DNA from: Devosia sp. RR2S18
GTDB taxonomy: Bacteria; Pseudomonadota; Alphaproteobacteria; Rhizobiales; Devosiaceae
Direction: 5' to 3'
DNA length: 64,000 nucleotides
Assembly (NCBI RefSeq): GCF_030177755.1
Contig: NZ_CP126539.1
Span: 3,901,431-3,965,430, forward strand
This document shows, piece by piece, positions 6,094-60,927 of the stretch; within the stretch, counting starts at the first letter, position 1, and every line of letters begins with the position of its first letter. A program made the translations under genes and the position numbers. Under the pieces are notes generated by a model that had not been told where the DNA came from, did not search any database, and was given only the letters and a program-made list of their open reading frames with translations.

Positions 6094-6618
6094 TCACTGA
6101 ACGCTCGGCGCGCCTGTCGGTTCGTCTGCATCCTCAATGACCGGTGAGACGCGCGGCGCGCACCAAGTTAGCGCGCTGTTGATAGCGTAGAGCGAACCGG
6201 CAAGGCTCACCGGGTTTGTCGGCGGCTGGGTGCCGGTTTCCGGCTGCAGGTACACGAATGTCCCCTGCTTGAGCCGCTCGAGAAGCCATTCGGTTCCGTC
6301 CACAATCTGTGCGCCGTAGGGCGCGTCACTGGCGACCGTCTCGACCGTGCGGTTTTCTCGATCGATGGTCAGCAGCCATTCGCCGACATCTCCTTCGAGA
6401 CGGCTGGTATGGATATGAATACCGGTCGAATAATCATCCTCGCACCGCACCGCCAGGCAGGCGAAACTCTCGGGAGTCGATCCCGGTGCGCACCCCAGCG
6501 AGGCACGGTCGCCCTCCCCAGGCAAAGGCGAATAATGCCAGCCCGCCTCTTGGGCTATGGCCGGCAGGCTGAAGAATACTGAAAAGAGGAGAACCGGAAT
6601 GGGACGCAGGAGCTTCAT
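6094..6618 (-). CDS. Secreted protein of unknown function
   Basis: This 174-residue protein has a typical Sec signal peptide: MKLLRPIP, a hydrophobic core, then LPAIAQ-EA as a likely cleavage site. The mature part has five cysteines, enough for two disulfides, and ends with a proline- and acid-rich tail. I chose ATG 6618 because the signal peptide begins there; the in-frame ATG at 6681 would put 21 polar residues in front. It is divergent from the peptide ABC operon and precedes the aldo/keto reductase on the same strand. I do not recognise the family. Confidence 0.7.
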   Translation of the reverse strand: MKLLRPIPVLLFSVFFSLPAIAQEAGWHYSPLPGEGDRASLGCAPGSTPESFACLAVRCEDDYSTGIHIHTSRLEGDVGEWLLTIDRENRTVETVASDAPYGAQIVDGTEWLLERLKQGTFVYLQPETGTQPPTNPVSLAGSLYAINSALTWCAPRVSPVIEDADEPTGAPSVQ

Positions 6619-6713
6619 TCTGTCATGGAGCACCGGGCAACCGCTCCGGTCAAGCGAACTGATCTTGGAAAAACCGTCCAATCCTGTGGAGGCGCCTCAG
6701 AAGTGTCACATGA

Positions 6714-6729
6714 TTGACCAAATGGTCAA
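6714..6729. promoter_or_regulatory. Perfect RutR-type operator upstream of the peptide ABC operon
   Basis: The 16-bp sequence TTGACCAAATGGTCAA is a perfect inverted repeat and matches the published E. coli RutR consensus TTGACCA-N2-TGGTCAA at every defined base. It lies in the 211-bp divergent region between the secreted-protein gene and the ABC substrate-binding gene, 101 bp before the latter's ATG. A RutR-like gene is present at 60223-60927. A GntR-family binder is the main alternative. Confidence 0.7.
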
Positions 6730-6829
6730 ACTCCCCCATTGCGCTCCCGCAGATTCTGGGGTTTTGTGTGGCCCAAGCCCCCGGCCGGCAAACCGGGCGG
6801 CGTAAAACACTACTCGGGAGACATCATCG

Positions 6830-8425
6830 ATGGCATTCAAAAAAGGCCTCCTGACTGCGACGGCGCTCGTCGCATTCACAGCAGGGGCAGCACAAGCCCA
6901 GACACTCGTTTATTGTTCTGAAGGATCCCCGGAAGGGTTCGATCCCGCACCCTACACCGCAGGTACGACGTTCGATGCTTCATCGCGCGCTCTCTACAAC
7001 CGCCTCGTGCAGTTCACCCCCGGCACCACCCAGACCGAGCCCGGCCTGGCCGAGAGCTGGGATGTTTCCGAGGACGGCCTCGAATACACCTTCCACCTGC
7101 GCCCCGGCGTGAAGTTCCACAGCACCGACTATTTCACCCCCACCCGTGACCTCAACGCCGACGACGTAATCTTCTCGTTCGAGCGGCAGTGGCAGGAAGA
7201 CCACCCGTGGTATGCCTACTCACCGGGCATCACCTGGGAGTACTTCAACTCCATGTCCATGGGCGACCTGATCTCCTCGATCGAGAAGGTTGACGATCTG
7301 ACGGTCAAGTTCGTGCTCAACCGTCCCGAAGCGCCGTTCGTCGCCAACATGGCTATGGATTTCGCTTCCATCCTGTCGGCTGAATATGCGGCTCAACTGG
7401 AGGAAGCAGGCACTCTGGACCAGCTCAATCAGCAGCCCATCGGCACCGGCCCGTTCGAGTTCGTGAACTACCAGCAGGACGCGGTCATCCGTTACGCGGC
7501 TAACCAGGATTACTGGGAAGACGTTCCGGAGATTGAAAACCTCGTTTTCGCCATCACCGTTGACCCTGCTGTCCGTGCGCAGCGCCTGCAGGCCGGCGAA
7601 TGCCAGGTCATGCCCTACCCGAACCCGGCTGATCTGCCGACGCTCCAGAATGATCCGAACCTCACCGTGATGGAGCAGGAAGGCCTCAACGTCGGCTATC
7701 TCGCCTACAACACGCAGCAGGAGCCGTTTGATAATCCTGAAGTTCGTCGGGCGCTGAACATGGCTATCGACAAGCAGGCCATCATCGACGCGGTCTTTGA
7801 AGGTTCGGGCTCCATTGCCAAGAACCCGATCCCACCCAGCATGTGGGGCTATAACGACGACATTGAGGATTACGAGTACGATCCGGAAGCCGCACGCCAG
7901 CTGCTGGCCGATGCCGGAGTCGAGGATCTCTCGATGAAGGTGTGGGCGATGCCCGTGTCGCGCCCCTACAATCCTGATGCGCGTCGCATGGCCGAGCTGA
8001 TCCAGGCCGACTTCTCCGAGGTGGGCGTCGATGTCGAGATCGTCTCCATGGAATGGGCCGAATATCTCGCCCAGTCTTCTGCTGTAGACCGCGATGGTGC
8101 GGTGTTGCTCGGCTGGACCGGCGACAATGGTGACCCGGACAACTTCCTTGCCGTGCTGCTGGGTTGCGATGCTGTGGGCAGCGCCAACCGTGCCCAGTGG
8201 TGCAATGAGGAGTTCGAGGCCCTGATCCAGGAAGCCAAGACCACCACTGACCAGGAAGAGCGCGCTGAGCTCTATCGCCAGGCTCAGGTGATCTTCAAGG
8301 ACCAGGCTCCTTGGGCCACCATCGCGCACTCGGTCGTCTTCATGCCCATGACCAACGAGGTCCAGGGCTATGTTATGGACCCCAAGGGCGGTCATTCCTT
8401 CGAAGACGTAACCCTCGCCGAGTAA
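6830..8425 (+). CDS. Dipeptide/oligopeptide-type ABC transporter substrate-binding protein
   Basis: This 531-residue periplasmic protein of the SBP_bac_5 (DppA/OppA) family begins with MAFKKG and a hydrophobic stretch, with a signal cleavage site likely after AAQA. Family signatures include FDPAPYTAGTTFDASSRALYNRL near the N-terminus, FHLRPGVKFH, and NMAIDKQAI in the second lobe. It is first in a five-gene operon (SBP, two permeases, two ATPases). SBP_bac_5 members bind peptides but also nickel, opines, sugars or other small solutes, so the ligand is open. A RutR-like box upstream makes a nitrogen-linked solute worth considering. Confidence 0.9.
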   Translation: MAFKKGLLTATALVAFTAGAAQAQTLVYCSEGSPEGFDPAPYTAGTTFDASSRALYNRLVQFTPGTTQTEPGLAESWDVSEDGLEYTFHLRPGVKFHSTDYFTPTRDLNADDVIFSFERQWQEDHPWYAYSPGITWEYFNSMSMGDLISSIEKVDDLTVKFVLNRPEAPFVANMAMDFASILSAEYAAQLEEAGTLDQLNQQPIGTGPFEFVNYQQDAVIRYAANQDYWEDVPEIENLVFAITVDPAVRAQRLQAGECQVMPYPNPADLPTLQNDPNLTVMEQEGLNVGYLAYNTQQEPFDNPEVRRALNMAIDKQAIIDAVFEGSGSIAKNPIPPSMWGYNDDIEDYEYDPEAARQLLADAGVEDLSMKVWAMPVSRPYNPDARRMAELIQADFSEVGVDVEIVSMEWAEYLAQSSAVDRDGAVLLGWTGDNGDPDNFLAVLLGCDAVGSANRAQWCNEEFEALIQEAKTTTDQEERAELYRQAQVIFKDQAPWATIAHSVVFMPMTNEVQGYVMDPKGGHSFEDVTLAE

Positions 8426-8495: not shown

Positions 8496-9503
8496 ATGAT
8501 CCGTTTCCTTCTCCAGCGCCTCCTGCTGATCATCCCGACCTTCATCGGGATCACCATCATTGCCTTCGCGTTCGTGCGAATCCTGCCCGGCGATCCCGTG
8601 CTATTGATAGCCGGCGAGCGCGGCGTTACGCCCGAGCGTTACCAGATGCTCATGCAGCAGTTCGGCTATGACCAACCGATCTGGCGGCAATACTTCGACT
8701 ACTTGTTCGGTATTTTCCAAGGCGATTTCGGCACCTCGATCTCTACCAAGCGTCCGGTCGTCAATGACTTCCTGGCCCTCTTCCCGGCTACGGTCGAGCT
8801 TTCTTTCTTTGCCATTATATTTGCCGTCAGCCTCGGTATTCCGGCAGGCATTATCGCTGCAGTGCGCCGCGGGTCTTGGTATGATCAGACGCTGATGGGC
8901 ACGGCGCTTGTGGGCTATTCCATGCCGATCTTTTGGCTGGGCCTGCTGCTCATAATTCTGTTCTCTGGCATTTTGGGTTGGACCCCGGTCTCGGGGCGTA
9001 TTGACCTGTTCTATTTCTTCCCGGCTGTCACCGGCTTCATGACGATCGACGCCTTGATCTCGGGTCAGGACGGCGCCTTTGTCTCGGCGCTCCGCCACCT
9101 CATCCTGCCAGCGGTGACGCTTGGTACCATTCCTCTTGCGGTTATCGCTCGCCAGACGCGTTCGGCCATGCTGGAGGTTCTGGGCGATGACTATGTGCGC
9201 ACCGCCCGAGCCAAAGGCTTGTCGCCCCGCCAAGTGGTGGGCGTTCACGCGCTGCGCAATGCGCTGATCCCCGTGATCACCACAATCGGTCTCCAAGTCG
9301 GGGTCATGATGGCCGGCGCCATTCTCACCGAAACAATCTTCTCTTGGCCCGGCATCGGCAAGTGGATGATCGACGCGATCTCGCGCCGTGACTATCCCGT
9401 CGTGCAGGCGGGCCTGCTGCTGATCGCGTTGATCGTGATGGCAGTCAATCTCATCGTCGATGTGCTCTACGGGCTCATCAATCCCCGTATCCGGCATCAG
9501 TAG
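8496..9503 (+). CDS. Peptide-type ABC transporter permease, DppB-like
   Basis: This 335-residue inner-membrane protein has an N-terminal TM segment, the DppB-type LPGDPV sequence after it, a large periplasmic loop, and the cytoplasmic EAA loop (DYVRTARAKGLSPRQVVGVH) before the last TM segments. It forms the translocation pore with the DppC-like protein that follows after 9 nt. No strong SD precedes ATG 8496, which suggests the intergenic hairpin or weak initiation sets its lower dose relative to the binding protein. Confidence 0.93.
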   Translation: MIRFLLQRLLLIIPTFIGITIIAFAFVRILPGDPVLLIAGERGVTPERYQMLMQQFGYDQPIWRQYFDYLFGIFQGDFGTSISTKRPVVNDFLALFPATVELSFFAIIFAVSLGIPAGIIAAVRRGSWYDQTLMGTALVGYSMPIFWLGLLLIILFSGILGWTPVSGRIDLFYFFPAVTGFMTIDALISGQDGAFVSALRHLILPAVTLGTIPLAVIARQTRSAMLEVLGDDYVRTARAKGLSPRQVVGVHALRNALIPVITTIGLQVGVMMAGAILTETIFSWPGIGKWMIDAISRRDYPVVQAGLLLIALIVMAVNLIVDVLYGLINPRIRHQ

Positions 9504-9512
9504 GAGGTGAGC

Positions 9513-10415
9513 TTGACCGACACTGCCGTCCCCTCCGCTCCCGAAGCCAGCCGCGCCGCCCAGCTGCGCGAGTTCTGGTATTATTTCTCCGTCAACAAAG
9601 GCGCCGTCATTGGCCTCGTTGTCTTCATCCTTTTGGTGGTGACAGCGCTTCTAGCTCCATGGGTTGCACCCCATTCACCAACTCAACAGTTCCGTGACGC
9701 GCTTTTGGTACCGCCCGCGTGGCTCGAAGGGGGGCGTTCCGCATTCCTCCTGGGAACTGATGCCGTGGGGCGTGACATCCTTTCACGGCTCATTCACGGC
9801 GCGCGTTATTCGCTCCTAATCGGCGCCGTCGTTGTCACGATCGCACTGACATTCGGGATCATATTTGGTTTGGTCGCTGGCTATGCCCGAGGCTGGGTCG
9901 ATGTCGTACTGATGCGTATCATGGACTTGATCCTCGCCTTCCCATCCTTGCTGTTGGCGCTGGTCCTGGTTGCTATTTTGGGCCCAGGCCTCATCAACAT
10001 GATGATCGCCATCGCACTGGTGCTCCAGCCGCACTTCGTGCGCTTGACCCGCTCGGCGGTGCTGGGTGAACTCAACAAGGACTATGTGACCTCCGCCCGC
10101 GTTGCGGGCGCAGGGCACATGCGTCTTATGTTCAAAACCATTTTGCCCAATTGCCTTGCACCACTCATCGTGCAGGCGACGCTGAGTTTTTCGAGTGCCA
10201 TTCTCGATGCGGCAGCGCTTGGTTTCCTGGGCCTCGGCGCTCAGCCGCCAACCCCCGAATGGGGCACCATGCTGGCCGAAGCTCGCCAGTTCATTCTGCG
10301 CGCGTGGTGGGTAGTGACTTTCCCGGGTCTCGCAATTCTCATCACTGTCCTGGCGATCAATCTCGTGGGCGACGGGTTGCGCGATGCACTTGATCCCAAG
10401 CTCAAGAGGAGCTGA
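9513..10415 (+). CDS. Peptide-type ABC transporter permease, DppC-like
   Basis: This 300-residue permease has the DppC features: an N-terminal FWYYFSVNKGAVIGLVVF segment, the GTDAVGRDILSRLIHGARYSL motif, and an EAA loop (DYVTSARVAGAGHMRLMFKTILPN). The start is set by the ribosome-binding site. A perfect AGGAGG at 9502-9507 is 5 nt before TTG 9513, whereas the in-frame GTG at 9507 lies inside the SD itself and cannot be the start. It is third in the operon; the next gene starts 3 nt after its stop. Confidence 0.92.
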   Translation: MTDTAVPSAPEASRAAQLREFWYYFSVNKGAVIGLVVFILLVVTALLAPWVAPHSPTQQFRDALLVPPAWLEGGRSAFLLGTDAVGRDILSRLIHGARYSLLIGAVVVTIALTFGIIFGLVAGYARGWVDVVLMRIMDLILAFPSLLLALVLVAILGPGLINMMIAIALVLQPHFVRLTRSAVLGELNKDYVTSARVAGAGHMRLMFKTILPNCLAPLIVQATLSFSSAILDAAALGFLGLGAQPPTPEWGTMLAEARQFILRAWWVVTFPGLAILITVLAINLVGDGLRDALDPKLKRS

Positions 10416-10418
10416 CCC

Positions 10419-11261
10419 ATGGCCCTGCTTGAAATCAAAAATCTAACCGTCGCTTTCGACACGTCGGTCGGCCTGTTCAAAGCCGTTGATGGCATCGACG
10501 TAGCGGTAGATCCTCGCGAAGTTCTCGCCATTGTGGGCGAGTCCGGCTCTGGCAAGTCCGTGGCCATGCTGGCTGTTATGGGGCTACTGCCCAACACCGC
10601 CACTGTGACGGCCGACCGGATGACCTTCGAGGGTCGCGACCTTCTCACCATGCCGGTGCAGGAAAAGCGCAAGATCATCGGCAAGGACATCGCCATGATC
10701 TTTCAGGAGCCGATCGCCAGCCTTAATCCCTGTTTCACCGTAGGCTTCCAAATTCAGGAAGTGCTCGAGCGGCATATGGGTCTCAAGGGCCGGGCGGCAC
10801 GCGACCGTGCGATTGAACTGCTGCAACTGGTCGGCATCCGAGACGGCGCGGAGCGCCTGGGCGCCTTCCCGCACCAGATGTCGGGCGGCCAGTGCCAGCG
10901 CGTGATGATCGCCATGGCGATCGCCTGCAATCCCAAGCTCCTGATCGCCGACGAGCCGACCACCGCTCTCGACGTCACCATTCAGAAGCAAATCCTTGAC
11001 CTGTTGGTCGGTCTACAGGCCGAGCATGGCATGGCTCTCATCATGATCACCCACGACATGGGCGTGGTGGCGGAAACTGCCGATCGCGTGATCGTCCAAT
11101 ACAAGGGACACAAGATGGAAGAGGCGGACGTCCTCTCGCTCTTCGAAAACCCCAAGTCCAACTATACCAGGGCCCTGCTCTCGGCTCTTCCTGAAAACGC
11201 CGTAGGTGACCGACTTCCGACCGTCGCGGACTACGATTTTGAAGCGGAGGTCGGCCGATGA
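10419..11261 (+). CDS. Peptide-type ABC transporter ATPase, DppD-like
   Basis: This 280-residue ATPase energises the importer. Walker A GESGSGKS is near residue 40, the Q-loop is in [11 protein letters not shown], the ABC signature MSGGQCQRV is near residue 152, and Walker [13 protein letters not shown] follows. The DppD-type [15 protein letters not shown] segment distinguishes it from single-ATPase systems. It overlaps the DppF-like gene by 4 nt (ATGA). The C-terminal oligopeptide-transporter domain that usually ends with a cysteine cluster is short here, lacking the Fe-S cysteines seen in some family members. Confidence 0.92.
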
Positions 11262-12091
11262 GCACTCCGGTTCTCGAAGTCCGCAATCTCAGGCGGGACT
11301 ATGTGACCTCGGGCGGACTCTTCCGCCCAGCTAAGGTCGTTCATGCCGTGAAAGGGGTGAACTTCACGCTGGAAAAGGGCAAGACGCTCGCCGTGGTGGG
11401 TGAGAGCGGCTGCGGCAAATCCACCCTCGCCCGCATGATTACCCTTATTGACCCGCCGACTTCGGGCGACATCCTGATCGACGGCAAGAAGGTGGAAGCC
11501 AAGCACGGGGTAACCCGCGAAATGCGCCAGAAGGTGCAGATCGTCTTCCAAAATCCGTACGGGTCCCTGAACCCGCGTCAGAAGATCGGCGAGGTGCTTG
11601 CCGAACCGCTTTTGCTCAACACCGACATGGCCATCGCCGAACGACGCGACCGCGCCCTACAGATGCTGATCAAGGTTGGGCTCGGTCCCGAGCATTTCAA
11701 TCGCTATCCGCACATGTTCTCGGGCGGCCAGCGCCAGCGCATCGCTATTGCTCGGGCGCTCATGCTCAATCCGAGCTTTCTCGTGCTCGACGAGCCGGTT
11801 TCTGCCCTCGACCTTTCGGTGCAGGCGCAGATCCTCAATCTTCTTAAAGATCTGCAGGACGAGTTCAGCCTCACCTACGTCTTCATCAGCCATGATCTCA
11901 GCGTGGTCCGCTACACCGCGGACGAAGTGATGGTCATGTATTTCGGTGACGTGGTGGAGCACGGCTCGCGCGACCAGGTCTTCGGAGCGCCGCAGCACGA
12001 CTACACCAAGACGCTTTTTGCTGCGACACCGCGCGCCGATGTCGACAGCATCCGGGCGCGGCTCGCCCGAAAGGCAGCTCTCGCGTCCTAG
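11258..12091 (+). CDS. Peptide-type ABC transporter ATPase, DppF-like
   Basis: This 277-residue partner ATPase has Walker A GESGCGKS near residue 50, the Q-loop FQNPYGSLNPRQKIG typical of DppF/OppF, signature FSGGQRQRI and Walker B FLVLDEPVSALD. It starts inside the dppD-like stop (ATGA overlap). Its TAG stop shares the tetranucleotide CTAG at 12088-12091 with the stop of the convergent Gfo gene, so the operon ends without space for an intergenic terminator. Confidence 0.92.
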   Translation: MSTPVLEVRNLRRDYVTSGGLFRPAKVVHAVKGVNFTLEKGKTLAVVGESGCGKSTLARMITLIDPPTSGDILIDGKKVEAKHGVTREMRQKVQIVFQNPYGSLNPRQKIGEVLAEPLLLNTDMAIAERRDRALQMLIKVGLGPEHFNRYPHMFSGGQRQRIAIARALMLNPSFLVLDEPVSALDLSVQAQILNLLKDLQDEFSLTYVFISHDLSVVRYTADEVMVMYFGDVVEHGSRDQVFGAPQHDYTKTLFAATPRADVDSIRARLARKAALAS

Positions 12092-50316: not shown

Positions 50317-51312
50317 TTAAAGTCCGTCAGTCACCACATGGGTGTAGGCGCCCTCAGGCTGCGTGGTGATAGCCGGATTGTCCGGTGACACAGCCGAGAG
50401 CAGCGTGTCGACAGTCTGCTGGTAATCGGCTTCGTCGAGGACACCGGTCGAGCCCTCTGTGAGCTTATTGACCTCCTGGACCTGATAAAGCTGGTCCTCG
50501 ACTGTCATGGCGCCGGTCATGTCGTTGTCGACGATGATCTGGGCGGCTTCTTCGGGGTTCTCGCGCACCCACTCCCAACCCTTCATCGAAGCGCGGACGA
50601 ACTTGGTCATCTTCTCGACGAAGGCGGGGTCCTCAAGGTCTTCTTCGAGCACGTAGAGGCCGTCCTCGAGCATGCCGACGCCCTCGTCGCGATAGTTGAA
50701 GACCGTGAGTTCGTCTTCGGTGAAGCCCGCGCGCAGCACCTGGCCGTATTCGTTGTAGGTCATGGTGGAGATGCAGGCGGCCTGGTTCTGGACCAGCGGA
50801 TCGACATTGAAGGCCTGGCGCAGTACTTCGACGCCCCCCTCGCTGCCATCGGTGGACAGGCCCAGCTTGGCCATCCAGGCATAGAAGGGATATTCGTTGC
50901 CAAAGAACCAGACGCCCAAGGTCTTGCCGGGGAAGTCGTCGGTGGTTTCAACACCGGCATCCTTGCGGCAGGTCAGCAGCAAGCCAGATTCAGCGAAGGG
51001 TTGGGCGATGTTGACGAGTGGTACCCCGCGTTCGCGCGCCGCCAGGCCCGCAGCCATCCAGGTGGTGATGACGTCTGCGCCACCGCCGGCGATAACCTGC
51101 TCGGGTGCAATGTCAGGGCCGCCTGGCTTGATCTCGACGTCGAGACCTTCCTCTTCGTAGAAGCCCTGCTCCTGAGCGGCGTAGTAGCCGGCAAACTGGC
51201 CCTGGGTGACCCATTTGAGCTGCAGCACGACCGAGTTGTCGTCCTGCGCCCAGGCGGCACTGGCGGTGAGCGCTACAGCGCCCGCAACCGCACCCATGAG
51301 AATGTTCTTCAT
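50317..51312 (-). CDS. ABC transporter substrate-binding protein (NMT1/ThiY-like)
   Basis: This 331-residue periplasmic protein has a signal peptide (MKNILMGAVAGAVALTASAAWAQ, cut after WAQ). It belongs to the NMT1/THI5-like family: LKWVTQGQFAGYYAAQEQGFYEEEGLDVEI, PEQVIAGGGADVIT and GVWFFGNEYPFYAWMAKLG. These bind pyrimidine-like or sulfonate-type ligands. It is last in the minus-strand order and part of an ABC importer whose neighbours degrade dihydropyrimidines, so uracil, dihydrouracil or an N-carbamoyl amino acid is a plausible ligand (inference). Confidence 0.88.
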   Translation of the reverse strand: MKNILMGAVAGAVALTASAAWAQDDNSVVLQLKWVTQGQFAGYYAAQEQGFYEEEGLDVEIKPGGPDIAPEQVIAGGGADVITTWMAAGLAARERGVPLVNIAQPFAESGLLLTCRKDAGVETTDDFPGKTLGVWFFGNEYPFYAWMAKLGLSTDGSEGGVEVLRQAFNVDPLVQNQAACISTMTYNEYGQVLRAGFTEDELTVFNYRDEGVGMLEDGLYVLEEDLEDPAFVEKMTKFVRASMKGWEWVRENPEEAAQIIVDNDMTGAMTVEDQLYQVQEVNKLTEGSTGVLDEADYQQTVDTLLSAVSPDNPAITTQPEGAYTHVVTDGL

Positions 51313-51343
51313 TTGCGCTTTCCCCTTTTTGTTTCCTGATGGT

Positions 51344-52438
51344 TCAGGCACCCCGCATGGATGGATGCCAGAACGTGACCCCTCGTTCGATGAGGGCGAC
51401 CACTCCGTAAAAAACCGAGCCTGCCAGGGCAGCCATGGCGATCTCGGCCCAAACCATGTCCACATTCATTCGGCCGATCTCGGCCGAGATGCGGAATCCC
51501 ATGCCCGCGACCGGCGAGCCGAAGAATTCGGCGACGATGGCACCGATCAGCGCGAGCGTGGAATTGATCTTGAGGGCGTTGAAGATGAAGGGCCCCGCTG
51601 CCGGGAGCCGTAGCTTGAGCAGCGTCTGCCAGTAGGATGCGGCATAGGTGCGCATAAGGTCGCGCTCGATGGCGCTCGCTGCATTGAGGCCGGCCACCGT
51701 ATTCACCAGCATGGGGAAGAAGGTCATGATGACCACGACGGCCGCCTTGGACTGCCAGTCAAAGCCAAACCACATGACCATGATGGGTGCGACACCAACG
51801 ATGGGCAGGGCGGAAACGAAATTGCCCAAGGGCAGGAGCCCCGATTTGAGAAATGGGGAACGGTCGATGAGGATGGCAACAAGGAAGCCAAGGCCGCACC
51901 CCAGGGCGTAGCCCGCAAGTACCGCCTTGAGGAAGGTTTGCTGGAAGTCGATCCAGAGTAGGCCCAGTGAGCTGGCAATGCGGGCACCGATCATCGAGGG
52001 TGGCGGCAGAATAACCTGCGGGACATTGGCGCCGCGGGTGACCACTTCCCAGGCGACCAGCAGGGTCATTCCGAAGACTACCGGGATCAGGAGGCCCAGA
52101 CCGGCATTGTCGCCCAATCGAGGGGCCAAGGCCTTGCTCAGGCGCTCGACGAACAACCAGGAAAAGAGCCAGGCGGCCACCAGCGCCATCCAGAAAAAGG
52201 GCGGGATGGGACTAAACACATTGATCGTCGTCAACACCGCCACCGCGCCAAGCAGGGCAAAGGCGCCATCGACCCAAAGCCCTAGCGGCACGATGAAGCG
52301 GAGCATGGAGGCGACGCCCAGCAGCAGAAAGGCTTTAAGCACCAGCGCCGTCTCGAAAGGCGTCACGAGGCTCAATGCCACAGCCGCAGCAGAAAGCCCG
52401 CCGGCGACAATTGCCAGGAAATGCTGGAACTGCGTCAT
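51344..52438 (-). CDS. ABC transporter permease (pyrimidine-locus importer), permease 2
   Basis: This 364-residue BPD-type permease of the SsuC/TauC/ThiX class has extra N-terminal TM segments compared with the usual 250-280 residues. The EAA-type loop DLMRTYAASYWQTLLKLRLPAAGPFIFNALKINSTLALIGAIVAEF and MGFRISAEIGRMN follow. ATG 52438 overlaps the stop of the first permease gene by 4 nt. The pair with the 298-residue protein makes the heteromeric membrane domain. Confidence 0.87.
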   Translation of the reverse strand: MTQFQHFLAIVAGGLSAAAVALSLVTPFETALVLKAFLLLGVASMLRFIVPLGLWVDGAFALLGAVAVLTTINVFSPIPPFFWMALVAAWLFSWLFVERLSKALAPRLGDNAGLGLLIPVVFGMTLLVAWEVVTRGANVPQVILPPPSMIGARIASSLGLLWIDFQQTFLKAVLAGYALGCGLGFLVAILIDRSPFLKSGLLPLGNFVSALPIVGVAPIMVMWFGFDWQSKAAVVVIMTFFPMLVNTVAGLNAASAIERDLMRTYAASYWQTLLKLRLPAAGPFIFNALKINSTLALIGAIVAEFFGSPVAGMGFRISAEIGRMNVDMVWAEIAMAALAGSVFYGVVALIERGVTFWHPSMRGA

Positions 52439-53331
52439 GCTGGGCGCGCTCCCATGGCGCGATTGACGAGCTTTTCCACAAGGCCAACAGCGAGGACCAG
52501 CAGCGCCGCCAGGATCGAGGCCGCCACGAGCGCCGACCAGATCTGCACCGTCTGGCTGTAATAGGAGCCGGCAAGGAGACGCGCGCCCAGGCCGGCGACG
52601 GCGCCGGTCGGCAGTTCGCCCACTATGGCACCGACGAGACTGGCGGCAACGCCAACTTTGAGCGAGGCAAAAAGGAAGGGCATAGCAGCGGGCCAACGCA
52701 GCTTCCAGAAGGTCTGGTTGGCGCTGGCGCTATAGGTGTGCATGAGGTCGAGTTGGATCGCTTCAGGCGAGCGCAGGCCTTTGACCATGCCTACGGCAAC
52801 TGGAAAGAAGCTGAGATAGGCCGAGATGATCGCTTTGCTGAGCAGGCGCGCGGGATCAGTGGGCATGCCGATGGTGCCGGTGAAGAGATTGAAGCCAATG
52901 ACCACGATCAGCGGCGCCAACGCCAGAATGGGGATAGTTTGGCTGGCGACGATCCAGGGCATGAGCGAGCGGTTCATCGCCTCGGAATGAACAATCAGCA
53001 CGGCAAGGGCGATGCCGAGAACCGAGCCGAGGGCGAAACCGAGTCCTGTGGCCGAGAACGTCACCCAGGCATGAAACAGAAGACTGCGCGGCTTGTTGGG
53101 CGCCACCATGACCGTGCTGTTCCAGAGTTCCTCGGCCACCTGATGCGGCGTGGGCAACACAGGCTTTTCCTGGTTCCAGGTGTCGGCAATAAACTGGGTC
53201 AGGGGAACATTGGTGACATCCCCGCGCCGGTAAACGTCATTCTGCCAGGGCGCATTGAGCGCGATCGCGGCGAGATACCAGACGACCACAAGAGCGATGA
53301 GGATGGTGAGGATTGGGATGGCGCGCTTCAT
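52435..53331 (-). CDS. ABC transporter permease (pyrimidine-locus importer), permease 1
   Basis: This 298-residue BPD permease has an N-terminal TM (MKRAIPILTILIALVVVWYLA), a VTFSATGLGFALGSVLGIALAVLIVHS segment, and the EAA loop DLMHTYSASANQTFWKLRWPAAMPFLFASLKVGVAASLVGAIVGEL. It is followed at 4-nt overlap by permease 2. A 160-bp gap with an inverted repeat pair separates it from the ATPase gene upstream. Confidence 0.9.
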   Translation of the reverse strand: MKRAIPILTILIALVVVWYLAAIALNAPWQNDVYRRGDVTNVPLTQFIADTWNQEKPVLPTPHQVAEELWNSTVMVAPNKPRSLLFHAWVTFSATGLGFALGSVLGIALAVLIVHSEAMNRSLMPWIVASQTIPILALAPLIVVIGFNLFTGTIGMPTDPARLLSKAIISAYLSFFPVAVGMVKGLRSPEAIQLDLMHTYSASANQTFWKLRWPAAMPFLFASLKVGVAASLVGAIVGELPTGAVAGLGARLLAGSYYSQTVQIWSALVAASILAALLVLAVGLVEKLVNRAMGARPA

Positions 53332-53352
53332 GCGGCGTCACCATCGGCAAAG

Positions 53353-53464
53353 ACCCCCACCCGGCCTCCCCCTGAGAGAGGGAGGAGGGGGGCTGGTGGG
53401 TGCAAGATACAGCGCCAATCACCGTTCCGTTCCTCCCCCTCCCAGGGGGAGGCTAGGTGGGGGT
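53353..53464. repeat. Pair of inverted GC-rich intergenic repeats
   Basis: A C-rich unit ACCCCCACC..GCCTCCCCCTG..AGGGAGGA starts at 53353. A second copy in reverse orientation ends at 53464 (TCCTCCCCCT at 53431-53440, then GGTGGGGGTT). Each copy has internal CCTCCC/GGGAGG symmetry and the two copies are roughly 90% alike. This has the look of a dispersed palindromic element. It may act on mRNA between the ATPase and permease genes. Confidence 0.75.
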
Positions 53465-53491
53465 TACGCGATGGCGTGCTCAACACCACCA

Positions 53492-54316
53492 TCACACCGT
53501 CTCCTCATAAGAGTGGCCAGCGCGCAAGCCTTCCCGCACGCGGGCGGCGATGGCAAGGAACTCCGGCGTCTCGCGGATGTCGAGCGGGCGCTCGCGCGGC
53601 AGGGTGGATTCGATCACATCGGTCACCCGACCCGGTCGCGGCGACATGACGACGATCTTGGTTGAAAGATAAACCGCCTCGGGAATGGAGTGGGTCACAA
53701 AGCAAATGGTTTTGCCGGTGCGGGACCAGAGCTTGAGCAGTTCAAAATTGAGGTGGTCGCGCACGATCTCGTCGAGGGCGCCGAAGGGCTCGTCCATTAG
53801 GAGGAGATCGGCGTCGAAGGCCAGCGCCCGCGCGATGGACGCCCGCTGCTGCATGCCGCCTGACAATTGCCAGGGGTACTTTTTCTCAAAGCCCGCGAGG
53901 TTCACCAGATCCAGCGTGCGAGCGATGCGTTCGGACTGCTGCGCCGCGGAATAGCCCATGATCTCGAGCGGCAGGGCAACGTTCTTTTCGATGGTGCGCC
54001 AAGGGTAGAGGGCAGGCGCCTGGAAAACATAGCCGTAGGAGCGATCCTTGCGGGCGTTTTCCGGCGTCTGTCCATTGACTGTCAAAAGGCCCGAAGTGGG
54101 TCGCTCCAGATCGGCGATCGTGCGTAGGAACGTGGTCTTGCCACAGCCCGACGGCCCGATGAAGGACACGAAGTCGCCCTTAGCGATGGTAAGGTTCACG
54201 TCCGAGAGGGCATGAACCGGGCCGTCATTGGTCTGGAACGTTAGGCCGAGATTGGTGGCGGACACCACCGCGTGGGGCGCAGCCTTGTCTGTGAGGGAAG
54301 TGGAAGTTTCGGTCAT
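53492..54316 (-). CDS. ABC transporter ATPase (pyrimidine-locus importer)
   Basis: This 274-residue ATPase of the SsuB/TauB type has Walker A GPSGCGKTTFLRTIADLERPTSG, the Q-loop in YVFQAPALYPWRTIEKNV, signature LSGGMQQRA, Walker B LLLMDEPFGALDEIVRDHLN and the switch His FVTHSIPEAV. The start is either ATG 54316 or the in-frame TTG 54325. It precedes the permeases and the binding protein in the same direction. Confidence 0.9.
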   Translation of the reverse strand: MTETSTSLTDKAAPHAVVSATNLGLTFQTNDGPVHALSDVNLTIAKGDFVSFIGPSGCGKTTFLRTIADLERPTSGLLTVNGQTPENARKDRSYGYVFQAPALYPWRTIEKNVALPLEIMGYSAAQQSERIARTLDLVNLAGFEKKYPWQLSGGMQQRASIARALAFDADLLLMDEPFGALDEIVRDHLNFELLKLWSRTGKTICFVTHSIPEAVYLSTKIVVMSPRPGRVTDVIESTLPRERPLDIRETPEFLAIAARVREGLRAGHSYEETV

Positions 54317-54534
54317 CACGGACAAGAGCTGGTGCCTTTCTCAGCTGGGTTGAACGACCGGCTGCCGGAAAGCGGCGGCTTGCCTCTCCCCAGTACCGAA
54401 CAAATGCAAAAGGTGTGCCGAACGGCGTTGTCTGGCTATTGCGCCCGCCATCTGACTGCCACCCAAGAAGGGGGGATCAATGCTGCCTAAATAACCGGCA
54501 GCACGCCCATCGATACGAGCCCTTGGCGTGACCA

Positions 54535-55989
54535 TCAGACGCCCGTCGCCGGAATGCCAGAGCGCTCGATCTTGCGTGGCGCGACGATCTCCTTCCACTG
54601 GCTGAGCGCACGGTTGACCGCGCCCTTGGGCTCGCGCGCGACGAACTTGCCGTGTCCGGGTTCGGTCTTGATCTCGCTCTCGACGATGGCAACCTTGCCG
54701 CGCGTCAGCACGAAACGAGGCAAACCGGTGACTTCAAAGCCTTCGAAGACATTGTAGTCTATAACCGACTGCTGGTTTTCAGATGAGATGGTCTTGCTGC
54801 ACTTGGGGTCCCAGACGAGGAGGTCGGCATCGGCACCCACCATCACCGCACCCTTTTTGGGGTACATGCCCAGGATCTTGGCGATGTTGGTGGAGGTGAC
54901 GGCAACGAACTCGTTCATGGTCAGGCGACCCGTATTAACGCCTGCCGTCCACAGCACTGGCAGGCGATCTTCGAGACCACCTGTTCCATTGGGGATCTTG
55001 GAGAAATTGCCGACGCCGGTGCGCTTCTGCTCGGTGGTGAAGGCGCAATGGTCGGTAGCTACGACGGAAAGCGAGCCGGCCTGCAGACCCGCCCAGAGCG
55101 AATCTTGATGTTGCTTGTTGCGGAAGGGGGGCGACATGACCCGGCGCGCCGCATGATCCCAGTCGGGGTTGAAGTACTCGCTCTCGTCCAGCGTCAGGTG
55201 CTGCACCAAAGGTTCGCCATAGACGCGCATTCCCTTCTGACGGGCGCGGCGGATCGCTTCATGCGCCTGCTCGGACGAGACATGCACGACATAAAGCGGC
55301 ACGCCGGCCATATCAGCGATCATGATGGCCCGGTTGGTGGCTTCGCCCTCCACTTCGGGCGGGCGAGAATAGGCGTGGGCCTCGGGTCCATTATTGCCTT
55401 CGGCCAAGAGCTTGGCCGTCATGGCAGCGACCACATCGCCGTTTTCGGCGTGAACCAGCGGCAGCCCGCCCAGATCGGCACAGCGCTGGAAGGAGGCAAA
55501 CAACTCATCGTCGTTTACCATCAGCGCGCCCTTGTAGGCCATGAAGTGCTTGAAAGTGGTGATGCCACGGTCGACCACATCGGCCATTTCGTTGAAGACC
55601 TGCTCGCCCCACCAGGTGATTGCCATGTGGAACGAATAGTCCGCCGAGGCCTTGCCCGACTTGTTGTCCCACATCTGGAGCGCTTCGAGCAGACTTTGGC
55701 CGGGGCTCGGCAGACAGAAATCGACAACCATTGTCGTGCCGCCGGCAAGAGCAGCACGGGTGCCGCTTTCAAAATCATCGGCCGAATAGGTGCCCATGAA
55801 GGGCATCTCGAGATGGGTATGAGGATCGATGCCACCGGGCATGACGTAGCAACCCGAGGCGTCGAGCGTCTCGTCGCCAGACAGGTTCTGTCCGATCTCG
55901 ACGATGGTCTCGCCCTCGATCTTGACGTCGGCCTTGTAGGTCAGGTCCGCCGTGACGATGGTGCCGTTCTTGATGACCTTGCTTGCCAT
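54535..55989 (-). CDS. Dihydropyrimidinase
   Basis: This 484-residue enzyme of the hydantoinase/dihydropyrimidinase family opens dihydrouracil to N-carbamoyl-beta-alanine. The binuclear metal ligands are present: H57 and H59 (DPHTHLEM), the carboxylated Lys in TFKHFMAYKGALMV, His in LVHAENGD, His in VVHVSSEQA and Asp in VATDHCAFT. Length matches. It is the second enzyme gene after the amidohydrolase (9-bp gap). The neighbourhood, with ureidopropionase and beta-alanine genes, excludes a purely hydantoin role. Confidence 0.93.
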   Translation of the reverse strand: MASKVIKNGTIVTADLTYKADVKIEGETIVEIGQNLSGDETLDASGCYVMPGGIDPHTHLEMPFMGTYSADDFESGTRAALAGGTTMVVDFCLPSPGQSLLEALQMWDNKSGKASADYSFHMAITWWGEQVFNEMADVVDRGITTFKHFMAYKGALMVNDDELFASFQRCADLGGLPLVHAENGDVVAAMTAKLLAEGNNGPEAHAYSRPPEVEGEATNRAIMIADMAGVPLYVVHVSSEQAHEAIRRARQKGMRVYGEPLVQHLTLDESEYFNPDWDHAARRVMSPPFRNKQHQDSLWAGLQAGSLSVVATDHCAFTTEQKRTGVGNFSKIPNGTGGLEDRLPVLWTAGVNTGRLTMNEFVAVTSTNIAKILGMYPKKGAVMVGADADLLVWDPKCSKTISSENQQSVIDYNVFEGFEVTGLPRFVLTRGKVAIVESEIKTEPGHGKFVAREPKGAVNRALSQWKEIVAPRKIERSGIPATGV

Positions 55990-55998
55990 GATGTGCCC

Positions 55999-57249
55999 CT
56001 AACTTACGATTTCAGCAGTTTCGACCACCGCGTGGAACAGCACTTCAGCGCCGGCACGCGCCCAATCCTTGGTGATTTCCTCGGCCTCGTTGTGGCTGAG
56101 ACCATCGACGCAGGGGCACATCACCATGGCGGTGGGCGCCACGCGGTTGATCCAGCAGGCGTCGTGGCCGGCACCGGAGACGAGGTCGCGATGCGAATAG
56201 CCCAGCCGCTCGACGGCATTGCGCACGGCGGCAACGCAGCCAGCGTCGAAAGTGACGGGATCGAAATGCCCGGTAACTTCCATTGCGAAGCCCAGGCCTA
56301 GCTGGTCGGCTATCTTGGGCGCCTCAGCTTCAAGCCGGGTCTTCATGGCATCGAGGATAGCCTGGTCGGGCGAGCGGAAGTCGACGGTGAACACCACCTT
56401 ACCCGGGATGACGTTGCGCGAATTGGGATAGACATCGACATGGCCGATGGCGCCGACCGCCTGGGGTTGGTGGCTCATGGCAATTTCGTGCACCAGTTCG
56501 GTAATCCGCGCCATGCCGAGCCCGGCATTCTTGCGCATGGGCATGGGGGTCGAACCGGTATGGGCATCCTTGCCGGTGAGCGTGATCTCGAGCCACCAGA
56601 GCCCCTGGCCGTGGGTGACGACGCCGATGTCCTTGCCCTCGGCCTCGAGGATCGGCCCTTGTTCGATATGGAGTTCGAAAAAGGCGTGAATCTTGCGCTC
56701 ACCGACTTTTTCGTCGCCCTTCCAGCCGATCCGCTCCAATTCGTCGCCAAAGCGCAGGCCCTTGGCATCCTTGCGATCATAGGCCCAATCGAGATCGTGG
56801 AGGCCGGCAAAGACACCCGAGGCCAGCATGGCCGGGGCGAAGCGCGTGCCCTCCTCATTGGTCCAGTTGGTGACGACGATGGGGTGCTTGGTCTTGATAC
56901 CAAGATCGTTGAGGCTGCGCACGATTTCCAGGCCACCGAGGACGCCCAGCACGCCATCATATTTGCCACCGGTGGGCTGGGTGTCGAGGTGGCTGCCGAC
57001 ATAGACCGGCAAGGCGTGGGGGTCGGTGCCCTCGCGGCGGGCAAACATGGTGCCCATCTCATCGATGCCCATGCTCATACCGGCGTCTTCGCACCAGCGG
57101 CGAAAGAGCTGGCGCCCCTCGGCATCCGCATCGGTCAGCGTCTGGCGGTTGTTGCCGCCGGCGACGCCCGGACCGATCTTGGCCATCTCCATTAGGCTGT
57201 CCCAGAGCCGGTCACCATTGATACGAAGGTTTTCTCCTGGTGCAGACAT
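55999..57249 (-). CDS. Beta-ureidopropionase / N-carbamoyl amino acid amidohydrolase (Zn)
   Basis: This 416-residue M20-type amidase has metal ligands in GSHLDTQPTGGKYDGVLGVLGGLE, NEEGTRF, FFELHIEQGPILE and GAGHDACWINRVAPTAMVMCP. It removes the carbamoyl group of N-carbamoyl-beta-alanine, releasing beta-alanine, CO2 and ammonia. Family members also act on allantoate, but the context favours ureidopropionase. It sits between MMSDH and dihydropyrimidinase genes in the same direction. Confidence 0.9.
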   Translation of the reverse strand: MSAPGENLRINGDRLWDSLMEMAKIGPGVAGGNNRQTLTDADAEGRQLFRRWCEDAGMSMGIDEMGTMFARREGTDPHALPVYVGSHLDTQPTGGKYDGVLGVLGGLEIVRSLNDLGIKTKHPIVVTNWTNEEGTRFAPAMLASGVFAGLHDLDWAYDRKDAKGLRFGDELERIGWKGDEKVGERKIHAFFELHIEQGPILEAEGKDIGVVTHGQGLWWLEITLTGKDAHTGSTPMPMRKNAGLGMARITELVHEIAMSHQPQAVGAIGHVDVYPNSRNVIPGKVVFTVDFRSPDQAILDAMKTRLEAEAPKIADQLGLGFAMEVTGHFDPVTFDAGCVAAVRNAVERLGYSHRDLVSGAGHDACWINRVAPTAMVMCPCVDGLSHNEAEEITKDWARAGAEVLFHAVVETAEIVS

Positions 57250-57273: not shown

Positions 57274-58770
57274 CTATTTGAGGCTGGGGAAGGTGAACTC
57301 CGCACCACCCTTGATGCCGGCGGGCCAGCGGGTGGTGACGGTTTTCAGCCGAGTATAGAAGTGAACGCCCTCGGGTCCGTAGATGGAGTGATCGCCGAAG
57401 AGCGAGCGCTTCCAACCGCCAAAGGAGTGGTAGGCAACCGGCACTGGGATCGGTACGTTCACACCCACCATGCCCACCTCGATCTTGTCGGCGAATTCGC
57501 GCGCAGCATCTCCATCACGGGTAAAGATGGCGGTGCCGTTGCCATATTCGTGCGTATTGATGAGATCGACGGCCTCGGCATAGTCGGCAGCGCGGACCAC
57601 CGACAGTACCGGGCCGAAGATCTCTTCCTTGTAGATGGTCATGTCGCGGGTCACGTTGTCGAACAGCGTGCCGCCGACATAGTAGCCTTCTTCATAGCCC
57701 TGGAGCTTGAAGCCGCGGCCATCCACCACCAGTTCGGCGCCTTCCTCGACGCCCTTATCGATATAGCCAACGATCTTGTCGCGATGCGCCTTGGTGACCA
57801 CCGGACCCATTTCGGCGTCCTTGTCGGTCGCCGGACCGATCTTGAGGGCTTCCACGCGCGGCTTGAGCTTGGCGACCAGCGCATCGCCAGTTTCCTTGCC
57901 GACCGGCACGGCGACGGAAATCGCCATGCAGCGCTCGCCGGCCGAGCCGTAGCCAGCGCCCATCAGGGCGTCGGCAGCCTGGTCGAGATCGGCATCGGGC
58001 ATGATGACCATGTGGTTCTTGGCGCCACCGAGTGCCTGGACGCGCTTTCCGGCCGTCGTGCCGCGCTGATAGACGTATTCGGCGATGGGGGTGGAGCCGA
58101 CGAAGCTCACCGCCTTGATGTCGGGGTGGTCGAGAATGCCGTCGACCATCTCCTTGTCGCCATGAACGATGTTGAGCACGCCCTCGGGAAGCCCCGCTTC
58201 CATGAAGAGGTTCCAGGCGAGCATGGAGGCGGATGGATCGCGCTCGGAAGGCTTAAGGATGAAGCTGTTGCCGCAGGCAATGGCGGCTGGATACATCCAC
58301 ATCGGCACCATGGCAGGGAAGTTAAAAGGCGTGATGCCGGCAACGACGCCCAGGGGCTGGCGGTCCGAATAGGAGTCGATGCTTGGGCCAACATTGCGGG
58401 AGAATTCGCCCTTGAGCAGTTGCGGGATGCCGCAGGCGAAATCCACGCAATCGATGCCGCGCGCCACCTCGCCCAAGGCATCGTCATGGACCTTGCCATG
58501 TTCCTTTGAGATCTCGCGGGCGATATCGTGGGCGTGCTGATCCAGGAGCGCCTTGAACTTGAACATGACGCGGGCCCGCTTCATGGGCGGGGTGTTACCC
58601 CAGGCGATCTGCGCCTCCTTCGCAGAGGCCACGGCCTTGTTCAGCTCGTCGAGGGTCGAGAGCGGCAGTTCGGCGGCTTGCTCGCCGGTCGCCGGGTTGA
58701 AAACAGGAACGCGGCGGCTGGATGAGGAGACGTAGCGCTTGCCGGCGACGGCGTTCTCGATGATCTGCAT
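57274..58770 (-). CDS. mmsA: (Methyl)malonate-semialdehyde dehydrogenase
   Basis: This 498-residue aldehyde dehydrogenase has the CoA-acylating MMSDH features: [41 protein letters not shown], and the catalytic Cys in [17 protein letters not shown]. It converts malonate semialdehyde, formed from beta-alanine, to acetyl-CoA and CO2. Its ATG and the stop of the aminotransferase gene share TAATG at 58770, so translation is coupled. Tail residues agree with the family. Confidence 0.92.
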
Positions 58771-60098
58771 TAGTCGATGCTCCGCAACGCGGCGCGCACG
58801 CCGTCTACCAGTTCGCCGATCTGGGATTCCGAAATGATCAGCGGTGGACTCATGGCGATGATGTCGCCGGTGGTCCGGATGAGATAGCCCGTTTCATAGG
58901 CTTTGAGGAAAGCCGAGAACGCGCGCTTGGTGGGTTGCCCAGCGATCGGCTCGAGCTCAATGGCGCCGACGAGGCCAATATTGCGGATATCGATGACGTG
59001 GGGCTCGCCCTTGAGAGAATGGAGCGCATCTTCCCAGGCTTTCGCCAGTTGGGCACCGCGGGTCAGCAGCCCCTCTTCCTTGTAGGTTTCCAGCGTCGCG
59101 AGCGCTGCCGCCGAGGCCACCGGATTGCCCGAATAGGTATAGCCATGGAAGAACTCGATGACGTGCTCGGGCCCCTGCATGAAGGCATCGTGGATCTCGG
59201 CCGAGACCATGACCGCGCCCATGGGGATGATGCCATTGGTGAGGCCCTTGGCTGTCACCATGATGTCGGGCACCACGTCGAAATAATCCGCGCCAAACGG
59301 CGTTCCGAGGCGACCAAAGCCGGTAATCACTTCATCGAAGATGAGGAGAATGCCATGCTTCTTGGTGATCTCCCGCAGGCGCTTGAGATAGCCGGCGGGC
59401 GGGATCAGTACGCCGGTGGAGCCAGCCACGGGCTCGACGATCACCGCAGCGATGGTCGAAGCATCGTGAAGGGTGACGATGCGCTCGAGCTCGTCGGCCA
59501 GATCCAGCCCATGCTCGGGCAGACCGCGCGAGAAGGCGTTCTTGGCGAGGTTGTGCGTATGCGGCATGTGGTCGACGCCACTGAGCAGCGTGCCGAACAT
59601 CTTGCGGTTGGTGACAATGCCGCCCACCGAGATGCCACCGAAATTCACGCCGTGATAGGCGCGTTCGCGGCCGATGAGACGAGTGCGGGCGCCCTCCCCT
59701 TTCACCCGATGGTATGCCAGCGCGACTTTGAGCGCCGTTTCCACCGACTCTGAGCCCGAATTGGTGAAGAGCACATGGTCCAGCCCCTTGGGCGCGATGT
59801 CGACCAGCCGGTTGGCCAACTCGAACGCCTTGGGGTGCCCCATTTGGAAGGCTGGCGCATAGTCGAGCTCGGCCGCCTGCTTGGCGATCGCCTCGACGAT
59901 GCGGGGCCGCGCGTGGCCAGCATTGACGCACCAGAGGCCAGCCGTGCCGTCAAGCACCTGCCGACCATCATTGGTGGTGTAGTGCATGTCCTTGGCCGCG
60001 ACGAACATGCGCGGCGCTTTCTTGTACTGGCGATTTGCCGTGAACGGCATCCAGAAGGCGCTCAGATCATTTGGCGCGACTGCAGATGAATTGGACAC
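58770..60098 (-). CDS. Beta-alanine:pyruvate aminotransferase (class III)
   Basis: This 442-residue class III PLP enzyme has [31 protein letters not shown] at the N-terminus, [11 protein letters not shown] with the PLP Asp, and the Lys in [19 protein letters not shown]. This N-terminal signature is typical of omega-amino-acid:pyruvate aminotransferases. It yields malonate semialdehyde from beta-alanine. GTG 60098 with GAGGGG 4 nt upstream is the preferred start; ATG 60116 is an alternative. It is first in the enzyme operon, divergent from the RutR-like gene. Confidence 0.88.
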
Positions 60099-60171
60099 GA
60101 AACCCCTCGCCTTCATGCTTTTCGGCTGGTTCTACTTTAGGCCTTGACGCGGAAGCGGGAAGTCCAGAATT

Positions 60172-60187
60172 TTGACCAGTTGGAAAA
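60172..60187. promoter_or_regulatory. RutR-type operator between the pyrimidine operon and its TetR gene
   Basis: TTGACCAGTTGGAAAA matches the RutR consensus TTGACCA-N2-TGGTCAA in 14 of 16 positions. It lies in the divergent region, 74 bp from the aminotransferase start and 35 bp before the TetR ATG. Confidence 0.65.
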
Positions 60188-60222
60188 ATGTTAGCACTCC
60201 CAGACTTTCCCGCAAGGCGAAA

Positions 60223-60927
60223 ATGCCGCCGACAAAAGTGAAAATTGCCGAACCGCAGATAAGTCCGAGACGCCAGAGCAAGGCGGCAGCGAAGGCGCGC
60301 CCCCTCACGCGGATACAAAGAGAGAAGCAGGACTTGATCCTGGAGGCGGCACTCGAGGTCTTCTCGGTGCATGGCTTTCGTGGCGCGACCATCGACATGA
60401 TCGCCGAGACCGCCGGGATGAGCAAACCCAATCTGCTCTACTATTTCCCGCGCAAGGAGGAGATCCATCGCCGCTTGATGGCCACCCTGCTCGACACCTG
60501 GCTCGCGCCGCTACGGGAGATGAAGGCGGACGGCGATCCGTTCCCCGAGATCCGCTCCTATATCCGGCGCAAGCTGGAAATGGCACGGGACTTTCCGCGC
60601 GAAAGCCGGCTCTTCGCCAATGAGATGCTGCAGGGCGCCCCCAGAATCATCGAGATGATTGAGGTGGACCTCAGAAACCTTGTCGATGAGAAAGCGGCGG
60701 TTCTCTTGAGTTGGATGGATCAAGGGCGGATCGCCCGCACGGACCCCTATCACTTGATCTTTTCAATTTGGGCGACGACGCAGCATTACGCTGATTTCGA
60801 TGTGCAGGTACGGGCCGTTCTGGGGCCGGCGCGTGGTGGCGAGGGCCGTTTCGAGGATGCCGCCCGCTATTTGGAGCAGTTGTTCCTGCATGGTCTGACG
60901 CCGAAGGTGAAGTCGGCGCCGCACTAG
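60223..60927 (+). CDS. rutR: TetR-family regulator, RutR-like
   Basis: This 234-residue regulator has an N-terminal basic extension, then an HTH of AALEVFSVHGFRGATIDMIAETAGMSKPNLLYYFPRKEEIHRRL. The ligand domain contains the RutR-type FANEMLQGAPRIIEMIEVDLRNLVDEKAAVL, and HLIFSIWATTQHYADFDVQVRAVL. RutR senses uracil/thymine and represses pyrimidine degradation. ATG 60223 has AAGG 5 nt upstream. It faces the degradation operon with a box between them. Confidence 0.9.
   Translation: MPPTKVKIAEPQISPRRQSKAAAKARPLTRIQREKQDLILEAALEVFSVHGFRGATIDMIAETAGMSKPNLLYYFPRKEEIHRRLMATLLDTWLAPLREMKADGDPFPEIRSYIRRKLEMARDFPRESRLFANEMLQGAPRIIEMIEVDLRNLVDEKAAVLLSWMDQGRIARTDPYHLIFSIWATTQHYADFDVQVRAVLGPARGGEGRFEDAARYLEQLFLHGLTPKVKSAPH

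Follow-up and report, generated by a model that had tools for sequence, protein, structure and literature searches.

Upstream of a peptide-type importer operon, the Devosia sp. RR2S18 genome carries a palindrome that resembles a RutR operator, and the same window (the whole 64,000-nucleotide stretch of DNA analysed here) also encodes a RutR-like regulator beside genes for pyrimidine degradation. This locus raises the question of which protein acts at the palindrome, which genes it governs, and what the importer carries. The box at 6714-6729, as given in the preliminary description, reads TTGACCAAATGGTCAA and fits the palindrome pattern TTGACCANNTGGTCAA exactly; the comparison used letters that we take to be the RutR consensus. 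It was the sole match in the window at ≤1 mismatch, compared to a mean of 0.01 in 100 dinucleotide shuffles. At ≤3 mismatches the window held 4 matches against a shuffle mean of 1.54, and 6 of 100 shuffles scored as high, which is near chance. A scan of the whole genome (3,965,430 bp) returned 2 exact copies, with 0.006 expected from the base composition of the window; one precedes dppA and the other an F420 operon. At 2 mismatches the genome contained 46 sites compared to 21 for the reversed control pattern, and those examined were the sites at rutR and at the TIGR03842 gene. A one-mismatch site at G000:C1:3388375 was set aside because it lies inside an open frame.

We examined the conservation of the box in front of dppA, from whose start (6830) it is separated by 100 bp. 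At ≤2 mismatches it was present in all 55 Devosia dppA upstream regions examined (50 exact, 4 with one mismatch and 1 with two), the spacer being AA in 42, AT in 12 and AG in 1. Left out of this count were a partial match in G009, whose upstream region was examined separately, a match at a contig edge in G037, a 43% relative in G050 and the second copy in G070. The preliminary description had held that absence of the box from close relatives that keep the operon would speak against its reading; among these Devosia regions no such absence was seen. In other families, 0 of 14 dppA regions had fewer than 3 mismatches to the box, and eight genomes from other families in which a dppA match and a RutR relative occur together (G081, G084, G086, G094, G099, G112, G115 and G116) had no dppA box at ≤2 mismatches. 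The link between box and dppA looks specific to Devosia.

In five Devosia genomes that have no close dppA (loci L170, L171, L172, L174 and L176), the box, with 0 or 1 mismatch, precedes a different family-5 binding protein that is 26% identical to DppA and was confirmed by Pfam in 4 of the 5. A relative of the aldo/keto reductase encoded at 5128-6069 was nearby in all 3 substitute-protein loci scanned for neighbours, each time scoring below the model cut-off. Two further observations concern the surroundings of such boxes. In the window, a 195-residue frame on the reverse strand (6094-6681) adjoins the boxed promoter and was unmatched in Pfam and NCBIfam at 1e-3; in another genome (locus L173, G064:C61:4194), a one-mismatch box, CTGACCAAATGGTCAA, lies upstream of a DAO-family FAD-dependent oxidoreductase.

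The rutR-like gene noted for the window is present, with its ATG at 60223 (Table 1). Its product scored below both curated RutR cut-offs (231 of 368 bits for TIGR03613 and 212 of 230 for PRK15008), and for this reason we term it RutR-type and not a RutR equivalog. According to the accessible part of PMC10891134, RutR binds uracil through W77, Y97, W167, Q171 and Q179, and K52 and K62 are its DNA lysines. RutR relatives were found in 69 of 73 Devosia genomes, the source genome included. All five uracil contacts are kept in the window protein and in 69/69 Devosia relatives, except W77 (68/69); K52, K62 and residues N54-Y58 of the recognition helix are likewise kept in 69/69, and T53 of this helix is replaced by P in all 69. 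The weaker box reported before rutR, TTGACCAGTTGGAAAA with 2 mismatches, was found as well. Its Devosia form, TTGACCANNTGGAAAA, was exact in 68 of 69 rutR regions; compared to TTGACCANNTGGTCAA, one half-site is perfect and the other contains the two mismatches. Immediately downstream of the rutR box, a short frame (60188-60241, MLALP...) opens that extends over the start of rutR. It contains TTAGCACTC, which resembles half of a CIRCE element, and a 17-residue frame from an ATG after the rutR box occurs in 45 of 69 Devosia genomes.

Table 1. Features of the window discussed in the text (scores in bits)
Feature	Position	Strand	Evidence
Exact RutR-type palindrome TTGACCAAATGGTCAA before dppA	6714..6729		Pattern search; Devosia conservation
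Promoter-like element TTGCGC, 17 nt, TTTTGT	6739..6767	+	Predicted by eye and from consensus of 37 Devosia regions
dppA-like family-5 solute-binding protein	6830..8425	+	SBP_bac_5; NF043070 DppA 733, cut-off 1005
dppB-like permease	8496..9503	+	PRK10914 470, cut-off 590
dppC-like permease	9507..10415	+	PRK10913 459.5, cut-off 483
dppD-like ATPase	10419..11261	+	PRK11022 345, cut-off 541
dppF-like ATPase	11258..12091	+	PRK11308 423, above cut-off 408
THI5/NMT1-type ABC importer, putative pyrimidine uptake	50317..54325	-	PF09084 and PF00528
 binding protein of this importer	50317..51465	-	
 permease of this importer	51344..52696	-	
 ATPase of this importer	53492..54325	-	
Dihydropyrimidinase / D-hydantoinase	54535..55989	-	TIGR02033 599.5, cut-off 393
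Carbamoylase, probably beta-ureidopropionase	55999..57249	-	TIGR01879 394, cut-off 204
(Methyl)malonate-semialdehyde dehydrogenase	57274..58770	-	TIGR01722 725, cut-off 448.5
Omega-aminotransferase AptA, putative beta-alanine step	58770..60116	-	NF052567 753, cut-off 500
-35-like TTGACG of rutR	60144..60149	+	Predicted from consensus of 68 regions
RutR-type box TTGACCAGTTGGAAAA between aptA and rutR	60172..60187		Predicted to overlap the expected rutR transcript start
RutR-type TetR regulator	60223..60927	+	TIGR03613; E. coli RutR closest solved protein; uracil-contact residues

The later pyrimidine steps are encoded beside rutR in the window (Table 1). The best match of the carbamoylase was NF006769, 'allantoate amidohydrolase' (711, cut-off 452), and for the ATPase of the adjacent importer no ATPase family exceeded its cut-off among the matches listed. 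The best matches in the genome to PreA (NF006183, 41.6 of 335 bits) and to RutA (TIGR03612, 42.3 of 498 bits) were both under their cut-offs.

The second exact copy of the box (G000:C1:2233724) lies about 40 bp upstream of an operon that encodes F420-dependent glucose-6-phosphate dehydrogenase (FGD), CofE and an F420-0 importer and ends with the gene for a TIGR03842 oxidoreductase. The preliminary description, although correct about the box at the importer, had overlooked this copy. A control system limited to dpp was rejected because the second copy sits on the F420 operon, and a luciferase-type match near it that was first taken as RutA-like proved to be FGD by NCBIfam. F420 is a rare cofactor, and FGD is known from mycobacteria. 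Scores over cut-off were obtained for FGD, CofE, the TIGR03842 oxidoreductase (483 bits, cut-off 295) and two of the three importer parts (binding protein and permease), and the importer ATPase was under its cut-off (339 of 372). The TIGR03842 gene has a box of its own, TTGATCGGCTGGTCAA, with 2 mismatches and about 35 bp before its match.

We found the same arrangement in relatives. In 30 Devosia FGD loci examined, out of 58 genomes with FGD, a box was present within 70 bp in 26 (4 exact, 1 with one mismatch and 21 of the variant TTGACCAAACGATCAA); in three of the four loci without it the TIGR03842 gene comes first, and the remaining one is an additional FGD copy. A scan of TIGR03842 loci, from which the best 80 of 410 were taken, comprised 49 Devosia-like alphaproteobacterial loci (L265-L313) and 31 others (L314-L344). 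The TIGR03842 gene was preceded by a box in 41 of the 49; of the remaining eight, one had its box at FGD, six had one box elsewhere and one had none. The boxes of rutR, preT, the FGD variant and TIGR03842 are all 2 mismatches from the palindrome. In the 49 loci the F420 set did not adjoin pyrimidine genes, with no RutR and a single weak match to AptA, so that the link between the two is drawn there from the box and from the exchange with PreA.

This exchange was apparent in the gene sets of the 73 Devosia genomes, which contain PreA in 13, FGD in 58 and TIGR03842 in 57; the count for PreA consists of 12 over cut-off and G038, in which it occurs in three pieces, each under cut-off. Among the 69 with rutR, 54 have the F420 enzyme only, 11 PreA only, 2 both and 2 neither, the last two genomes being 55% and 74% complete. 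A RutR-like box, TTGACCAATTGATAAA, precedes preT in 13 of 13 PreA genomes. On the RutR tree, 7 changes are needed for PreA and 5 for the F420 enzyme, and G006, a genome with the F420 set, is placed together with three PreA genomes on a supported branch; PreA was not found in the G006 genome, and preTA is absent from its rutR region. Fisher's test gave 8e-8 (73 genomes) and 3e-9 (69 genomes), values that ignore relatedness and are descriptive only. When PreA and the F420 enzyme were compared by independent pairs, supported branches gave 3 pairs and all branches together 7, and the sign test was not significant; with only 3 supported pairs, the formal test is without power. As a control, 13 of 17 other-family genomes with RutR have PreA, and one of the four without it, G092, has TIGR03842. 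Whole-genome searches in 27 carriers of TIGR03842 gave a PreA match over cut-off in 2, and PreA or PreT was found in 0 of the best 80 of 410 TIGR03842 loci.

In the 31 loci from outside the Devosia-like group (best 80 of 410), a relative of dihydropyrimidinase, carbamoylase or AptA was near TIGR03842 in 30, and the same regions contained a relative of RutR in 27 and of CofE in 25. F420 biosynthesis genes lie near dihydropyrimidine-degradation genes in scanned loci from Marinomonas, Paraburkholderia, Pseudomonas and Halomonas (L332, L316, L320 and L322, respectively). In Marinomonas sp. KMM3893 the gene order is rutR-like, cofG, cofH, cofD, cofC, cofE, npdG and TIGR03842, with relatives of dihydropyrimidinase and carbamoylase nearby; the F420 biosynthesis genes of this locus form a complete set. 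In the Paraburkholderia locus, the scanned proteins included cofG, cofH, cofE and npdG, in that of Pseudomonas cofH, cofD and cofC, and in that of Halomonas cofD and cofE. A box with ≤2 mismatches was near a matched gene in 5 of the 31 loci, and in none of the 31 before CofE or TIGR03842; the regulators of the 31 loci are distant.

We infer that the TIGR03842 enzyme would catalyze the reaction uracil + F420H2 -> dihydrouracil + F420, and that an F420-dependent uracil reductase would replace PreTA inside the RutR-type regulon. The enzyme might instead act elsewhere in this regulon, at a different step or on a different substrate: the model names the family only as F420-dependent oxidoreductase, with a putative function, and the first six of 11 solved structural relatives are methylene-H4MPT reductases, an F420-dependent enzyme. 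We regard this alternative as unlikely because TIGR03842 replaces PreA in most Devosia while the later steps stay, because preT and the F420 genes bear the same kind of box, and because both F420 biosynthesis and dihydropyrimidine-degradation genes accompany TIGR03842 in the four loci named above. A role for TIGR03842 as an F420-dependent dihydropyrimidine dehydrogenase that has displaced PreTA in the RutR-type regulon, with many proteobacterial F420 sets mainly serving uracil reduction, is in our judgment fairly likely.

We likewise considered whether some other TetR- or GntR-type protein that recognizes a similar palindrome binds in front of dppA, in which case the resemblance of this site to the RutR box would be coincidental. 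Consistent with this, the own box of RutR is only half-perfect here, the genome contains eight other weak matches to the regulator, and the dppA box is missing from genomes of other families that have RutR. In addition, TTGACCGTTCGGTCGA lies upstream of dppA in G088, a genome in which a search for RutR relatives at 1e-20 found none, and where another TetR-type regulator may act. In contrast, exact palindromes also precede FGD, and near-exact ones were found in other families before rutR-like genes: of 18 regions examined there, each reaching from 400 bp upstream of the rutR-like match to 100 bp inside it, 10 contained the palindrome at ≤2 mismatches, and one of these genomes, G099, has a one-mismatch copy before a preT-like gene. 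Moreover, only one close RutR-like protein is encoded in the source genome, the next match being at 2e-9. A different binding protein is thus improbable, and the identification of the 6714-6729 box as a RutR-type operator, which would be bound by the product of 60223-60927, is well supported by sequence comparison. The preliminary description had proposed a single regulator linking the importer with pyrimidine catabolism; this is very likely, given that the box is kept with the operon in 55/55 regions, that the genome has a single close RutR-like protein, and that the motif precedes rutR-like genes of other families.

The position of the boxes relative to predicted promoters suggests how such a regulator might act. 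At rutR, TTGACG is followed after 17 nt by a -10-like GAATTT that abuts the box; a protein bound there would block transcription, and this arrangement suits repression. By eye, the layout of box and promoter at preT, FGD and TIGR03842 is similar, if less clear. At dppA, a scan with the sigma-70 consensus found no promoter, and a conserved TTGC-type -35-like element lies 9 nt downstream of the box. The dppA box would thus be located just before the predicted -35, in another geometry than at rutR, and its effect there may differ. In E. coli, DNA binding by RutR is impaired by uracil, as described in the accessible part of PMC10891134, and uracil would lower binding of the Devosia regulator as well. 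Taken together, these findings suggest a single RutR-type regulon, which we consider likely, consisting of the rutR/aptA region (the enzymes after the first step of reductive pyrimidine degradation, and their transporter), a first-step enzyme that is PreTA or, as here, the F420 set (FGD, CofE, the F420-0 importer and TIGR03842), and the dppABCDF dipeptide-type importer.

With respect to the cargo of this importer, the box does precede a dpp-like operon as described, the best NCBIfam matches of its five genes all being dipeptide-transporter models; one of the five, the dppF-like gene, is over its cut-off. Dipeptide-binding DppA is the closest match of the binding protein, which we term DppA-like because it misses the curated cut-off (Table 1). 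Its Arg378 and Asp432 align with the two positions that differ between the 8z1y and 8z1z sequences and that we take to form part of the dipeptide site. By pattern, both residues are present in 26 of 29 loci, and the Asp in 29 of 29. Since Arg378 and Asp432 are kept, dipeptides are the likeliest cargo. The earlier suggestion that the importer might carry a nucleobase-derived compound draws on the box being common to importer and pyrimidine genes, and the distant family-5 protein behind the box in five Devosia genomes leaves the cargo to that extent open. Nevertheless, a nucleobase-derived cargo has little probability in view of the dipeptide-site residues Arg and Asp and of the separate THI5-type importer in the pyrimidine cluster, which would be the better candidate for pyrimidine uptake. 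Of the earlier proposal, a nitrogen source remains as a candidate cargo, in the form of dipeptides. The dppA box is also kept in PreA-type Devosia without F420 genes, which argues that the importer is not specific to F420. Finally, a chance palindrome, for which it can be said only that the weaker window matches are near chance level, is a negligible explanation that is refuted by the conservation in Devosia and by the low number of exact copies expected per genome.

Compared to known systems, the arrangement in Devosia shares with the E. coli RutR regulon (rutA-G and carAB) and with predicted proteobacterial ones a TetR-type regulator, a palindrome of about 16 bp and pyrimidine catabolism, as far as the accessible parts of PMC10891134 and PMC5343134 describe them; the latter gives 273 sites and 743 target genes for RutR regulons in 68 genomes, with taxon-specific motif changes. 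In contrast to the E. coli regulon, the Devosia box precedes the genes of a reductive route as well as a dipeptide-type importer and an F420 set, and RutA is under cut-off. The PreTA/PydA reductive route, represented by PreA in 13 Devosia genomes, has the same later enzymes, regulator type and box, whereas the first step is here assigned, as a proposal, to an F420-dependent luciferase-type enzyme. Known sets of F420-0 transporter, CofE and FGD are alike in that the models for FGD, CofE and the binding protein and permease of the importer are matched over cut-off; the present set differs in belonging to an alphaproteobacterium, in bearing a RutR-type box and in its importer ATPase being under cut-off. 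A putative F420-dependent yanthine reductase has been proposed in Chloroflexota, where a luciferase-family F420 enzyme would act on a uracil-type ring in place of a PydA-like reductase (accessible part of PMC12507026). Although that proposal concerns a uric acid route of anaerobes, with other genes and not pyrimidines, according to the same part of the source, it is a close chemical precedent. In the open-licence literature that we searched, we found no link of F420 to uracil or dihydropyrimidine reduction.

Why Proteobacteria make F420 is named as an unanswered question in the accessible part of PMC8498797. If the reading proposed here is true, pyrimidine degradation would be a concrete, testable answer to the role of F420 in many Proteobacteria. 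A nitrogen-salvage route would likewise gain a new first step and the TIGR03842 family, so far named only as an oxidoreductase, a function, and this would represent a case in which a regulator keeps its regulon while an enzyme within it is exchanged.
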